Positions 58,561 through 63,416 of a stretch of 64,000 bases of DNA are shown piece by piece. Origin of the DNA: Alphaproteobacteria bacterium (GTDB lineage Bacteria; Pseudomonadota; Alphaproteobacteria; Micropepsales; Micropepsaceae); assembly GCA_947473475.1 (NCBI GenBank), contig CANJBZ010000004.1, positions 1 through 64,000 on the forward strand. The letters are read 5' to 3'. The notes under the pieces are model-generated. The model was not told where the DNA came from and ran no database searches. It saw nothing but the letters and a program-made list of their open reading frames with translations. The stretch's first letter is position 1, and the number at the start of each line of letters is the position of its first letter. The translations under genes were made by a program, and so were the position numbers.

Positions 58561-58831
58561 TCAGAGCTTCAGGCGAACGGTCACGCCATAGGTACGCGGG
58601 TCGCCGAGAAGACCAACCACAGCGCCGGAATTGCCGGTCTGTGCTTGCAGGTACTGGAAGTAGTGCGTGTCGATGTCGAAGACGTTCTTTGCCCAGACGA
58701 CGCACTCCCAATTGCCCGAGGTAAATAAGACCCGCGCGCAGATTGATGAGCGTGTAGCTTTCAATTTTCAGATATTTGGAGTCGGACGCATCCAAATAAG
58801 CCGTCGAGCGATAACTCGCGTCGGTGCCGGC
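58561..58831 (-). pseudogene. C-terminal relic of a TonB-dependent receptor
   Basis: Two frames together spell the last 90 residues of a receptor barrel: TDASYRSTAYLDASDSKYLK, IESYTLINLRAGL, then after a frameshift near 58720 SGNWECVVWAKNVFDIDTHY and GDPRTYGVTVRLKL with a stop at 58561. A stop lies just upstream at 58832. The plug and most of the barrel are missing. Confidence 0.8.
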
Positions 58832-59019
58832 TTATGTATGCCCGAAAACCCTCATGTCCTGCTCCGGACCCGCTCGCGGAGGTGCCGTCGCAAGCCCCTC
58901 CACCTCTACTGCATCCCTAGACATTCTGATAAAATGCTTAATTCGCGACGGCGCGCTTTTGGGCGGAAACACTGATAAAAGAGGGAAGAAACCGGGGGTA
59001 CCCCGGCTGGGGAGGGATT

Positions 59020-59799
59020 ATGAAAAGCAAAGTTCTTGGAGCGGCCGTCGCGGCTCTGCTCGTGGTGTCGCAGATTTCAATGGCGGACGCCGCTGAGCTG
59101 AAAGTCTTCGTCGGCGGCGCGATGACCGAGACGGTCAAGAAAATCGGCGCCGATTTCGCCAAGGCCAGCGGCAATACGCTGACCTATGTCTCTGACACCA
59201 CGGGCGCTCTGCAGAAACGGCTGCAAAGCGGCGAGAAAGCGGACGTGCTGGTGGTGACAGCCGCGGGTCTGGACTCGCTGGAGAAGGAAAACCGCGTCGC
59301 CGCCGGCACGCGCACCACATTGGTGCGCGCATTGATCGGCGTGGCGATGCAGCCGGGCGGCACGGCGCCCGATCTCTCCTCGCAGGACAGCTTCAAGCAA
59401 TCGCTGCTGAAGGCGCGCACGGTCTCTTACGTTAATCCGGCCGCGGGCGGCACGTCAGGCACCTATTTCGAAGGCCTGATGAAGAAGATGGGCATTTACG
59501 ACCAGATGAAAAGCAAGATCGTCTATCGCAACCAGGGTTCGGAAGTCGCCGACGCGGTGGCCAAACACGATGCCGAACTGGGCATCAGCTTCATCGCGGA
59601 ATTGGCCCCGAACAAAGGCGTGAAGGTGGCCGGTCCCTTGCCGGACGCGATCCAAGCCCCGACGGATTATGTCGCGGGCGTCGCTGCGGGCAGCGCCAAT
59701 GCAGCGGCTGCGCGCGCCTTTATCAATGCGATGACAAGTCCATCTGGCGGTGCAGTGTTTAAGGCCGCCGGCCTCACCGTTTTACCCGCGAGCCATTGA
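59020..59799 (+). CDS. ModA-like periplasmic binding protein 1
   Basis: 259 residues. A signal peptide (ALLVVSQISMADA) precedes a type II binding fold of the molybdate-binding ModA family: AELKVFVGGAMTETVKKIGADFAK, SDTTGALQKRLQSGEKADVLVV, GTSGTYFEGLMKKMGI, and ELGISFIAELAPNKGV. The ggaggg site precedes ATG 59020. The upstream sequence has a GGGGTACCCC palindrome near 58998. It is the first of three tandem paralogues without modB or modC; the ligand is unknown. Confidence 0.86.
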   Translation: MKSKVLGAAVAALLVVSQISMADAAELKVFVGGAMTETVKKIGADFAKASGNTLTYVSDTTGALQKRLQSGEKADVLVVTAAGLDSLEKENRVAAGTRTTLVRALIGVAMQPGGTAPDLSSQDSFKQSLLKARTVSYVNPAAGGTSGTYFEGLMKKMGIYDQMKSKIVYRNQGSEVADAVAKHDAELGISFIAELAPNKGVKVAGPLPDAIQAPTDYVAGVAAGSANAAAARAFINAMTSPSGGAVFKAAGLTVLPASH

Positions 59800-59807
59800 G
59801 GGTCATC

Positions 59808-60572
59808 ATGCGCAAAGGCGTTTTTCTTTCGTTGGTTCTCGCCACAGCTTTCGCGATCTCTCCCGCGGCTGCTGTGGAACTCACCATATTCGCTACCGGC
59901 TCAATGGCCGATCCTCTCAAAGAGTTGGGCGAAGACTTCACGCACCAGACCGGTCACACGCTGAAATTCTCGCTCGGCACGACGGGCGGCGTGATGAACA
60001 AGCTGAAGGCGGGCGAAAAAGGCGATGTCATCGTCATCTCCGACGAAGCCGCGGACACCCTGGAGAAGCAGGGCACATTCGCGCCCGGCACGCGCAAGGA
60101 CGTCGCCAGTTCGCTGTTCGGCGTCGTGGTGAAACGGAATGCGCCGGCGCCCGATGTCTCCACGCCCGATGCGCTGAAGAAGGCGGTGCAATCCGCGCGG
60201 CATATTTCTTATCCCGACCCCGTCGCGGCGGCAGCATCGGGCGGTTATGTGGAATCGGTACTGAAGAATTTCGGCATCCTCGATGACAGCCGCAAAAAAG
60301 CGTCGCTGAAACCGATGGGCTATCTGGTCGGTGAAGCGGTGGAGAAAGGGGAAGCCGATCTCGGCCTTTCCTTCATGAGCGAATTCGTCGCCGACAAGGA
60401 TCTCAAGGTCGTGCCCTTCCCGGCCGCACTTCAAAAGCCGCAGCTTTATGTGGCGGGCGTCTTTGCGGGCGCACCGAATGCCGAGGCGGCGCGCGCCTTC
60501 ATTGCATTTGTGACCAAGCCGGAAAATCGCGCGAAATTGAAAGCCGCCGGCGTCGAACCGGCGGTCCATTAA
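59808..60572 (+). CDS. ModA-like periplasmic binding protein 2
   Basis: 254 residues from ATG 59808, with GAGGG before it (a TTG at 59796 that overlaps the previous stop is an alternative). The signal peptide ends FAISPAAA. The core is VELTIFATGSMADPLKELGEDF, LGTTGGVMNKLKAGEKGDVIVIS, and LGLSFMSEFVADKDLKVVPFP. It diverges most from copies 1 and 3 in the ligand-side loop (ASGGYVESVLKNFG instead of GTS-x-YFEGL). Confidence 0.86.
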   Translation: MRKGVFLSLVLATAFAISPAAAVELTIFATGSMADPLKELGEDFTHQTGHTLKFSLGTTGGVMNKLKAGEKGDVIVISDEAADTLEKQGTFAPGTRKDVASSLFGVVVKRNAPAPDVSTPDALKKAVQSARHISYPDPVAAAASGGYVESVLKNFGILDDSRKKASLKPMGYLVGEAVEKGEADLGLSFMSEFVADKDLKVVPFPAALQKPQLYVAGVFAGAPNAEAARAFIAFVTKPENRAKLKAAGVEPAVH

Positions 60573-60596
60573 GCCGATTCGAAAAGGAAGAACGTC

Positions 60597-61358
60597 ATGC
60601 GCAACGTCTTGATCGCTTCCGCGGTGTTGCTGTTTGCGGCGAACGCAGCCGACGCCGCGCAGATGAAGTTGCTTGTCGCCGGCTCTATGCAGGAGCCGTT
60701 CAAGGAAGTGGGCGCCGGCTTCGGCAAGAAGAACGGCCACACGATCGAGTACATCGCCGACACAACCGGCGCGCTGCAAAAGCGTATGCGCGCCGGCGAG
60801 AAGGTGGACATTATCCTGTTGTCGTCGGCCGGAATGGATGCGATGGAAAAAGAACATCTGGTCGTGCCGGGCACGCGTGTCGATCTAGCCATCGCCGCCA
60901 TCGGCGTTTCGGTCAAGGCAGGTGCGCCATCGCCCGATCTTTCGTCGGCCGATGCTTTCAAGAAAATGCTGCTGTCCGCGCGCTCAGTTGCCGTGGTTGA
61001 TCCCAAAGCCGGCGGCACATCGGCCATTTATTTTGAAGGCCTGTTTCAGCGCATGGGTATCGCCGGCGAGATCGAGAAAAAGGTCGTGTACGGACAACAG
61101 GGATCGCAGGTTGCGAGCGCCGTCGCGGACGGACGTGCGGAGATCGGCATGACGTTCATCAGCGAGATGCTGCCCAACAAAGGCGTGAAGATCGCCGGGC
61201 CGTTGCCGCCTGCCGTTCAGAACGCGACCAATTATACGGTCGCCATTCCTGCAAACGCGCCCAATCCCGATGCGTCCCGCGCCTTCATCGCCGCCATGCG
61301 CACGCCCGAAGCCCGCGCCGCCATTGTGCATGCGGGCCTGGAGCCGCTACCGAAGTAA
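60597..61358 (+). CDS. ModA-like periplasmic binding protein 3
   Basis: 253 residues. The signal peptide ends AANAADA; then QMKLLVAGSMQEPFKEVGAGF, DTTGALQKRMRAGEKVDIILLS, GTSAIYFEGLFQRMGI, and EIGMTFISEMLPNKGVKIAGP. It is closest to copy 1. It is probably in one transcript with copies 1 and 2. Confidence 0.86.
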   Translation: MRNVLIASAVLLFAANAADAAQMKLLVAGSMQEPFKEVGAGFGKKNGHTIEYIADTTGALQKRMRAGEKVDIILLSSAGMDAMEKEHLVVPGTRVDLAIAAIGVSVKAGAPSPDLSSADAFKKMLLSARSVAVVDPKAGGTSAIYFEGLFQRMGIAGEIEKKVVYGQQGSQVASAVADGRAEIGMTFISEMLPNKGVKIAGPLPPAVQNATNYTVAIPANAPNPDASRAFIAAMRTPEARAAIVHAGLEPLPK

Positions 61359-61399: not shown

Positions 61400-61864
61400 T
61401 TACTCCGCAGGGGCCGGTTGGCGCGTGCGTTTGGGTTGGGGAACCGTGCCGGTTTCATCAAGCCCTTCGGCCAGCGTCCGGCTTTCCAGGATGTGCGCCG
61501 TCGTGTCGCGTACCGCGAGCAGCACTTTGCGCAATACGCAGGTCGCCTCATCGACGCAGTCGTCGCAGCGGCGATAGGCTGTCACGCTAACGCAGGGGCT
61601 CAGCGCCAACGGCCCGTCGATGGTGCGAATAACTTCGGCAAAGGAGATCTTGTCCGGCGAACGCCCAAGCGTGTAGCCGCCGAACTTGCCGCGTACGCTG
61701 TGCAGGATGCCGCGCTTTTTCAGTTCGAGAAGTATCTGCTCAAGGAACTTCCGTGGAATGCGAGCTTCCGCGGCAATTTCCGCAATCGTCACGGGCTGAC
61801 CGATGGGCCGCTTGGCCAAAAGAAACAGCGCGCGGAGAGCGTAACGGGCCTTTTGAGATAGCAT
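61400..61864 (-). CDS. Rrf2-family regulator with four cysteines
   Basis: 154 residues from ATG 61864. The winged-helix DNA-binding domain is MLSQKARYALRALFLLA, TIAEIAAEARIPRKFLEQILLELKKRG and VRGKFGGYTLGRSP. Cys91, Cys100, Cys103 and Cys109 in the C-terminal half could hold an Fe-S cluster, as in IscR or NsrR, although the spacing differs from both. It is convergent with the ModA-like genes and divergent from the efflux operon. Confidence 0.88.
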   Translation of the reverse strand: MLSQKARYALRALFLLAKRPIGQPVTIAEIAAEARIPRKFLEQILLELKKRGILHSVRGKFGGYTLGRSPDKISFAEVIRTIDGPLALSPCVSVTAYRRCDDCVDEATCVLRKVLLAVRDTTAHILESRTLAEGLDETGTVPQPKRTRQPAPAE

Positions 61865-62042
61865 GATTAAGTCCACGTAATATATAGAGTATGAGGATCT
61901 TTCAGCTCCCGTTCAAGTGAGGCGGCTAAACAGGCGGGTAAGTGGCATCATTCCTGCGAATGTGGACAATTGGGCGTTTAGATAGGGATCGTTGTTTCCG
62001 ACAGTCTGATTGCACCAAATTGAGCTTGGCAGGATCGCCGAT

Positions 62043-63416
62043 ATGAATGTTCAAAGTCCGATACGGAATATCCAGGCCACCGCCCCCCGGGTAAAAGCGC
62101 CACCCAAAAAGCGTGGCCGTGGCTGGCTGGTCCTTGCTTTCATCCTCTGTGTGCTGCTCGGCGCAGGCGCGTACTGGTATTACGGCGGCAGCAGCACCAG
62201 CACGCCCGAGCCGGTTATCGTCACCGCAACGCGCGGCGATGTGGAAGACGTGGTCACCGCCGTCGGCAGTCTAACACCCCTGAACAGCGTGGATGTCGGC
62301 GCGCAGGTCTCCGGTCAGCTTGAAAAGCTGTATGTGAAAATTGGCGACGAGGTTGAGCAAGGCAAGCTCCTCGCCGAGATCGATTCGTCGGTGATGGCGG
62401 CGAAGGTCGATGCCGGCAAAGCGCAATTGCAGAATTTGCAGGCGCAGCTCGCCGAGAAGCAGTCGCAAGCGACCCTCGCGCATGTTCAAGCGGAGCGGCA
62501 AGACAAGCTGTTTGCCATCGGCGGCACCAGCAAGGACTTGCTCGATCAGGCGCAGGCGGGGGCAAAAGTCGCCGATGCGCAGATAAAATCCGTGCAGGCG
62601 CAGATCATGCAGGCGGAATCTTCGTTGAAGGCGGATAGCGCGACACTCAGCTACAGCAAGATCTTTGCGCCGATGACGGGAACGGTGACGGCCATCCCCG
62701 CGAAACAGGGCCAGACACTCAACGCCAATCAATCGGCGCCGCTTATCCTCACCATTTCCGATCTGTCGACCATGACTGTATCGACACAAGTGTCCGAAGC
62801 GGACGTCTCGAAGCTGCGCGTCGGCGTGGAGGCTTATTTTACGACGCTCGGAAATCCCAACCGGCGCTTTCGCGGCACGCTGCGGCAGATACTTCCGACG
62901 CCGACGGTCACCAACAATGTCGTGCTCTACACGGCGCTGTTCGATGTGGCCAACACCGACAAGCAGCTTCTGCCGCAAATGACGGCGCAGGTGTTCTTCG
63001 TCAGGGCATCCGCGCAAGATGCCGTTCTGGTTCCGGTGGCGGCATTGCAGTTCGGTGGCGCGCGTGCCGGTGGGACGCCGCAAGGCGCCGCGAATGACGG
63101 CGCCCGCGCGGGCCGCAATGGCGCGGGACGCGCGGGGCGTGGCGGACGAGGCGGCGCGGGCTTCGACCCGACAGCGGGATTGCGCCCGAGGGCCGCGACA
63201 CTCACCGTCGTGAAGGATGACGGTTCGCAGGAAACGCGCAGCGTCATGGCGGGCGTCACCGATCGCGTGAATGCGCAAATCATTTCAGGCTTGAACGAAG
63301 GCGAAAGCATTATCGCCGGTGTTCAGACCGCGGATGCAGGAAACGGAGCGCAACGGCGCCAGCAACAGCGGCCGGGCGGCGCCGGCGGCCCGGCGGGACT
63401 TGGAGGCTTCCGGTGA
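62043..63416 (+). CDS. MacA-like periplasmic adaptor of an efflux pump
   Basis: 457 residues from ATG 62043. One N-terminal membrane helix ([20 protein letters not shown]) is followed by a periplasmic biotinyl-lipoyl-like domain ([44 protein letters not shown]), a coiled-coil hairpin ([23 protein letters not shown]), and a barrel domain ([24 protein letters not shown]). A glycine/alanine/arginine-rich insert ([21 protein letters not shown]) lies near residues 350-385 and is unusual. The stop overlaps the next start (GTGA). Confidence 0.9.

Follow-up and report, generated by a model that had tools for sequence, protein, structure and literature searches.

The window, i.e., the whole analyzed stretch of 64,000 nucleotides, harbors three genes for ModA-like binding proteins (genes 1 to 3, hereafter the trio), which are arranged head to tail on the plus strand with spacers of 8 bp and 24 bp. 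They are followed by a regulator gene of the Rrf2 family and by the genes of a MacAB exporter:

59020–59799, plus strand: gene 1, orphan ModA-like binding protein of 259 aa with signal peptide (PF13531, E 1.2e-40)
59808–60572, plus strand: gene 2, orphan ModA-like binding protein of 254 aa with signal peptide (PF13531, E 2.8e-40)
60597–61358, plus strand: gene 3, orphan ModA-like binding protein of 253 aa with signal peptide (PF13531, E 2.8e-43)
61400–61876, minus strand: Rrf2-family regulator (PF02082, E 6.7e-38) with the motif C-X8-C-X2-C-X5-C
62010–63416, plus strand: MacA-type periplasmic adaptor (TIGR01730 RND_mfp, 169 bits against 94.9)
from 63413 onward: macB, directly after macA

The start of gene 2 was taken to be the ATG; an alternative, longer reading from a TTG at 59796 results in an overlap of 4 bp with gene 1. 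The domain SBP_bac_11 (PF13531) spans the entire mature length of each protein (E 3e-40 to 3e-43), and the pairwise identity within the trio is 40–51%, in agreement with the preliminary description of three paralogous ModA-like genes with signal peptides in head-to-tail order. A Sec-type signal peptide was recognized by eye at each N-terminus (..MADA/AE, ..PAAA/VE, and ..AADA/AQ), and no lipobox cysteine was seen in the three signal peptides when read in the same way.

Compared to the orthologues in sister genomes, all three genes were found to be under purifying selection, with a dN of 0.12, 0.44, and 0.37 for genes 1, 2, and 3, respectively, against a dS of about 1. For gene 1, the dS of 1.08 corresponds to a dN/dS of about 0.11, and the amino acid divergence of genes 2 and 3 is larger than that of gene 1. 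Since dN is well below dS, the genes appear to be maintained and not decaying. Scans for promoters and terminators gave results no better than chance. The trio probably arose by tandem duplication and is probably co-transcribed.

Just upstream of the trio, at 58567–58843 on the minus strand, a remnant of the C-terminus of a TonB-dependent receptor with a frameshift and a stop codon was observed. It shares 48% identity over 50 residues with a receptor on contig C42, which also adjoins an orphan ModA-like gene.

The Rrf2 regulator and the MacAB exporter

As described before, neither modB nor modC is located near the trio; none was found in the window, and the adjacent ABC genes encode MacA and MacB, which form an exporter and not an importer. 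For the adaptor gene, the best NCBIfam model is MacA with 287 bits, which is under the cut-off of 342 for that model.

The Rrf2 gene with its four cysteines is indeed convergent with the trio, and it is divergent from macA, starting at a distance of 133 bp. The preliminary description had noted this regulator beside the binding proteins; a link between the two is not supported. In two sister genomes (G004 and G006) an orthologous Rrf2 gene, with all four cysteines conserved, is divergent from macA, macB, and the gene of an outer membrane factor (OMF), and no ModA-like gene is present there. The most likely assignment of the regulator is thus to the exporter and, judged by this conserved gene order, it most likely regulates macAB. 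As it travels with macAB, it was rejected as a regulator of the trio. The Rrf2 gene and the MacAB exporter would thus form a unit separate from the trio.

Fold, binding pocket and phylogeny

The AlphaFold model of gene 3, calculated from an input alignment of 40 relatives, has a mean pLDDT of 94.8. The best solved structure (VIA-align 2) was the tungstate-bound ModA of E. coli (1wod; Z 27.2, rmsd 2.2, 19% identity, 228 residues), with other ModA proteins and the YvgL-like protein Lmo1041 ranking equally. The latter (PBP2_YvgL-like, PDB 7tav) was the top Foldseek match with an E-value of 1.9e-19; it is a protein of a Gram-positive organism that shares the ModA-like fold at 17–19% identity and is likened to the trio by its fold alone. 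The predicted fold of gene 3 is thus ModA-like, and the ligand is not given by the fold alone.

With 84.9, 74.3, and 80.1 bits, genes 1 to 3 exceed the cut-off of the modA model TIGR01256 (62.5 bits), whereas the scores with the stricter NCBIfam molybdate models are far under the cut-off. The WtpA model NF003196 was not reached either, with 18–20 bits against 355 for genes 2 and 3 and no match for gene 1. The comparison of binding sites that the preliminary description had proposed was covered by this score for WtpA and, for E. coli ModA, by an alignment of the pocket.

In E. coli ModA, molybdate is held through S12, S39, A125, V152, and Y170. At these five positions, an alignment of about 40 relatives revealed A-T-S-G-F for gene 1 and S-T-S-G-F for genes 2 and 3, so that none, one, and one of the five E. 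coli residues, respectively, are kept. Classical molybdate residues in all three proteins had been named beforehand as an outcome that speaks against the preliminary description; they are absent from all three. The pocket set is altered in all orphans and not in the trio alone. The hydroxyl group of Tyr170 is lost in the trio, and several small or hydroxyl residues are still present in the pocket, which keeps an anion of some kind plausible as ligand. Oxyanion binding in ModA is largely achieved by main-chain NH groups, and the altered side chains of the trio would for this reason be compatible with molybdate, tungstate, or another oxyanion.

In the phylogenetic tree, the ModA clade and the orphans are split with a support of 100/100, and the branch between them measures 1.7 changes per column. 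The trio groups with relatives in a clade of 11 members, supported at 97/91 in this tree and less firmly in a larger one. Altogether, the trio resembles E. coli ModA (PDB 1wod/1amf) in fold, size, signal peptide, and the passed TIGR01256 cut-off, and differs from it by an identity of about 19%, a replaced pocket (A or S/T/S/G/F), the absence of modBC, and its position in a separate clade. By pocket and by phylogeny the three proteins are not ModA proteins, although the fold and one curated score say so.

Molybdate transport genes and orphan receptors

The host genome (3.87 Mb, 66 contigs) contains 13 PF13531 genes that score at least about 100 bits; a stop codon interrupts one of them. A single permease scores over the modB cut-off; it is located on contig C17 with modC adjoining, and no PF13531 gene was found on this contig. 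The genuine ModA of the host is encoded on contig C15 (C15:49789) beside a modE-like gene and agrees with E. coli ModA at each of the five pocket positions (S, S, A, V, Y). The five residues are also kept in the ModA proteins of three sister genomes, and a modE-like neighbor was found for three of the four ModA genes including that of the host. The host ModA is therefore itself unlinked to modBC, and the two contigs together provide a complete set of parts for molybdate uptake without the trio. A separation of the modE-like gene and modA from modBC on different contigs was also observed at L046:7231–8479 and L045:5319–7099, and the modB contig of sister genomes is likewise free of ModA-like genes.

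About 12 of the ModA-like genes of the host, including the trio, have no transporter of their own, and the paralogous receptors far outnumber the transporters (13 ModA-like genes against one ModB over the cut-off). Other genomes of the genus contain three to eight related genes. In a sample of 289 alphaproteobacterial genomes, relatives counted at an E-value of up to 1e-25 were found in 11 genomes besides the host, and these are solitary too where the surrounding genes could be called. The preliminary description had also named modBC directly adjacent in related genomes as an outcome contradicting it. A BLAST search with ModB in about 50 neighborhoods of the family and the class revealed no ModB homologue adjoining an orphan; the matches were the ModB of the host itself, a cysT/cysW-like pair at an orphan-free locus, and a weakly matching permease at a distance of four genes. 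No ABC transporter family was matched by two or more of the 73 immediate neighbors of orphans, and four ABC_tran and three BPD_transp_2 matches were obtained for genes four to five places away.

The immediate neighbors of orphans in the lineage of the trio are varied. Overlaps with other genes, or very short distances to them, are common among the orphans, and several of the genes concerned encode exported enzymes; MFS genes are not enriched next to orphans (3 vs. 2 of 73). The orthologue of gene 1 in the sister genome G002 is 83% identical and lies in an unrelated gene context. Based on sequence, the trio is part of a lineage-specific expansion of orphans that is distinct from true ModA.

A frequent neighbor of the orphans is a family of secreted proteins of approximately 300 aa (cluster C1), for which about 90 gene-like matches were counted in the host genome, with roughly 20 of them in a tandem array on contig C7 (C7:49776–66316). 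One member was scanned and gave no Pfam match. As a candidate partner of the orphans this family was rejected, since with about 90 copies in the genome its proximity is uninformative.

Expansions of orphan receptors are already recognized, and the trio represents such a case in the ModA-like family and on a smaller scale. Rhodoplanes sp. Z2-YC6860 carries 434 TctC genes, for which shared transporters or a role in sensing were proposed (PMC5994714), and the Bug proteins of Bordetella are orphan receptors of the TctC family, two of which bind quinolinate (PMC11452294). These sets have in common with the genes described here that periplasmic receptors expanded in a particular lineage without cognate membrane genes. 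They differ in the family, which is TctC and not ModA-like PF13531, and in number (434 and 76–79 there, about 12 here). A literature search for ModA-like orphan receptors found nothing direct.

Possible ligand and partners of the trio

A tblastn search in a plasmid collection yielded 119 records with relatives at an E-value of up to 1e-10 which, where annotated, are mostly termed substrate-binding domain-containing protein. For several of the inspected relatives, the directly adjacent gene encodes an MFS protein and has the same orientation, with an overlap of 8 bp in Cronobacter and 4 bp in Sphingomonas and a distance of 11–54 bp in Klebsiella, Paraburkholderia, Burkholderia, and Caballeronia. 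Two of these orphan-linked MFS proteins were scanned and reached 739 and 656 bits with the model of the tricarballylate symporter TcuC (NF011656; 445 bits). Operon-like pairs of a TcuC-type MFS gene and an orphan ModA-like gene occur in three classes of Proteobacteria (L228:4614–6720 in Cronobacter pESA3, L229:4604–6720, and L225:5887–8015), and such pairs possibly represent MFS uptake assisted by a binding protein.

Other relatives are located inside gene clusters for the 4,5-cleavage of gallate or protocatechuate. ModA-like proteins without a signal peptide were observed beside amidohydrolase genes at L220:5968–6645, L223:5932–6642, and L236:5896–6597, two of the three in such cleavage clusters. 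These proteins belong to one subclade and are perhaps a cytoplasmic pathway enzyme reusing the ModA fold.

The TcuC-type or citrate-type MFS genes and the gallate/protocatechuate genes next to these relatives suggest organic acids rather than oxyanions as their ligands. The relatives linked to MFS genes or cleavage clusters are 30–38% identical to the trio and belong to other subclades, and an organic acid as ligand of the trio itself is inferred by analogy. The MFS-linked receptors of Cronobacter pESA3, Klebsiella, and Paraburkholderia share the orphan ModA-like superclade with the trio (30–37% identity to gene 3). They differ in being paired with an MFS symporter and in having Q instead of F at the position of Tyr170; no MFS gene is located beside the trio.

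The loss of the pocket residues in the trio, together with an orphan set without transporters, indicates that the ligand is probably not molybdate. The trio is best explained, with a probability of roughly 0.6, as tandem, exported, transporter-less ModA-fold binders of small organic anions whose partner is encoded elsewhere or which take part in sensing. In the periplasm, each protein would close like a Venus flytrap around a small anion, for which an organic acid is the most likely candidate and not molybdate. The anion would then be delivered to an uptake system that is unlinked or shared, to an enzyme of the periplasm, or to a sensor.

It is rather unlikely that the three proteins are instead additional ModA-type receptors which share the lone ModBC, itself unlinked, and enable it to accept further oxyanions such as tungstate, chromate, or sulfate-like ions. 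Such sharing would be consistent with the ModA fold (Z 27), the passed modA cut-off, and the small or hydroxyl residues remaining in the pocket. Docking in trans must moreover already occur, since the host ModA is unlinked to ModBC. The pocket is changed in the trio and in all other orphans, however, the clade is separate, a host ModA with a full pocket exists, and it would be unusual for one transporter to be served by 12 additional receptors.

Unlinked secondary transporters as partners appear quite unlikely. Three tandem MFS genes on C17 (C17:47286–51174), at a distance of about 5 kb from the single modBC of the host, are 50–53% identical to the TcuC-like symporter of Sphingomonas, and Cronobacter, Klebsiella, Burkholderiales, and Sphingomonas contain pairs of a TcuC-type MFS gene and an orphan ModA-like gene. 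This linkage is missing in the host genome, though, and the trio is placed outside the MFS-linked subclade. Across the 289 alphaproteobacterial genomes, TcuC-like MFS genes were not consistently located together with orphan genes; three genomes of this sample have close TcuC-like genes, none of them beside an orphan. In the papers found, no MFS carrier is named as dependent on a binding protein.

A partnership with the neighboring MacAB-outer-membrane-factor exporter, in which the trio feeds it a periplasmic substrate or senses for it, is very unlikely. It is suggested by the sister genome G001, where two ModA-like genes that correspond to genes 2 and 3 (an orthologue of gene 2 with 54% and a relative of gene 3 with 56% identity) directly precede macA-macB-OMF in the same orientation. 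The flanking genes are also syntenic between G001 and the window, so the adjacency may simply be inherited and is weak evidence of a functional link. No such genes are present at the same macAB locus of G003, G004, and G006 or at related loci of two other genera; between the trio and macAB lies the convergent Rrf2 gene, and the 83% orthologue of gene 1 is found elsewhere in G002.

The least probable explanation is that the three proteins have lost the receptor function and employ the fold as periplasmic enzymes or chaperones, as the signal-peptide-less, cytoplasmic-looking relatives beside amidohydrolase genes might suggest, since the trio has signal peptides, the model of gene 3 is normally two-lobed, and no catalytic motif was recognized.

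The preferred reading of the trio as transporter-less binders of organic anions could be extended to the entire orphan ModA-like clade, whose members would then be organic-acid receptors that hand their ligand to MFS carriers or periplasmic enzymes and not to ABC importers. This extension is speculative and improbable at present; if true, it would add a binding-protein-dependent mode of MFS uptake next to the TRAP and TTT systems. Whether an MFS carrier can be served by a binding protein is directly testable in the relatives that are paired with MFS genes.

Genes that pass the modA model can be named molybdate-binding protein. A large sister group was found here in which the pocket is changed and ModBC is absent, so that many soil bacteria probably carry wrong annotations of this kind. 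The ligands, if found, would show the role of a common class of orphan receptors.
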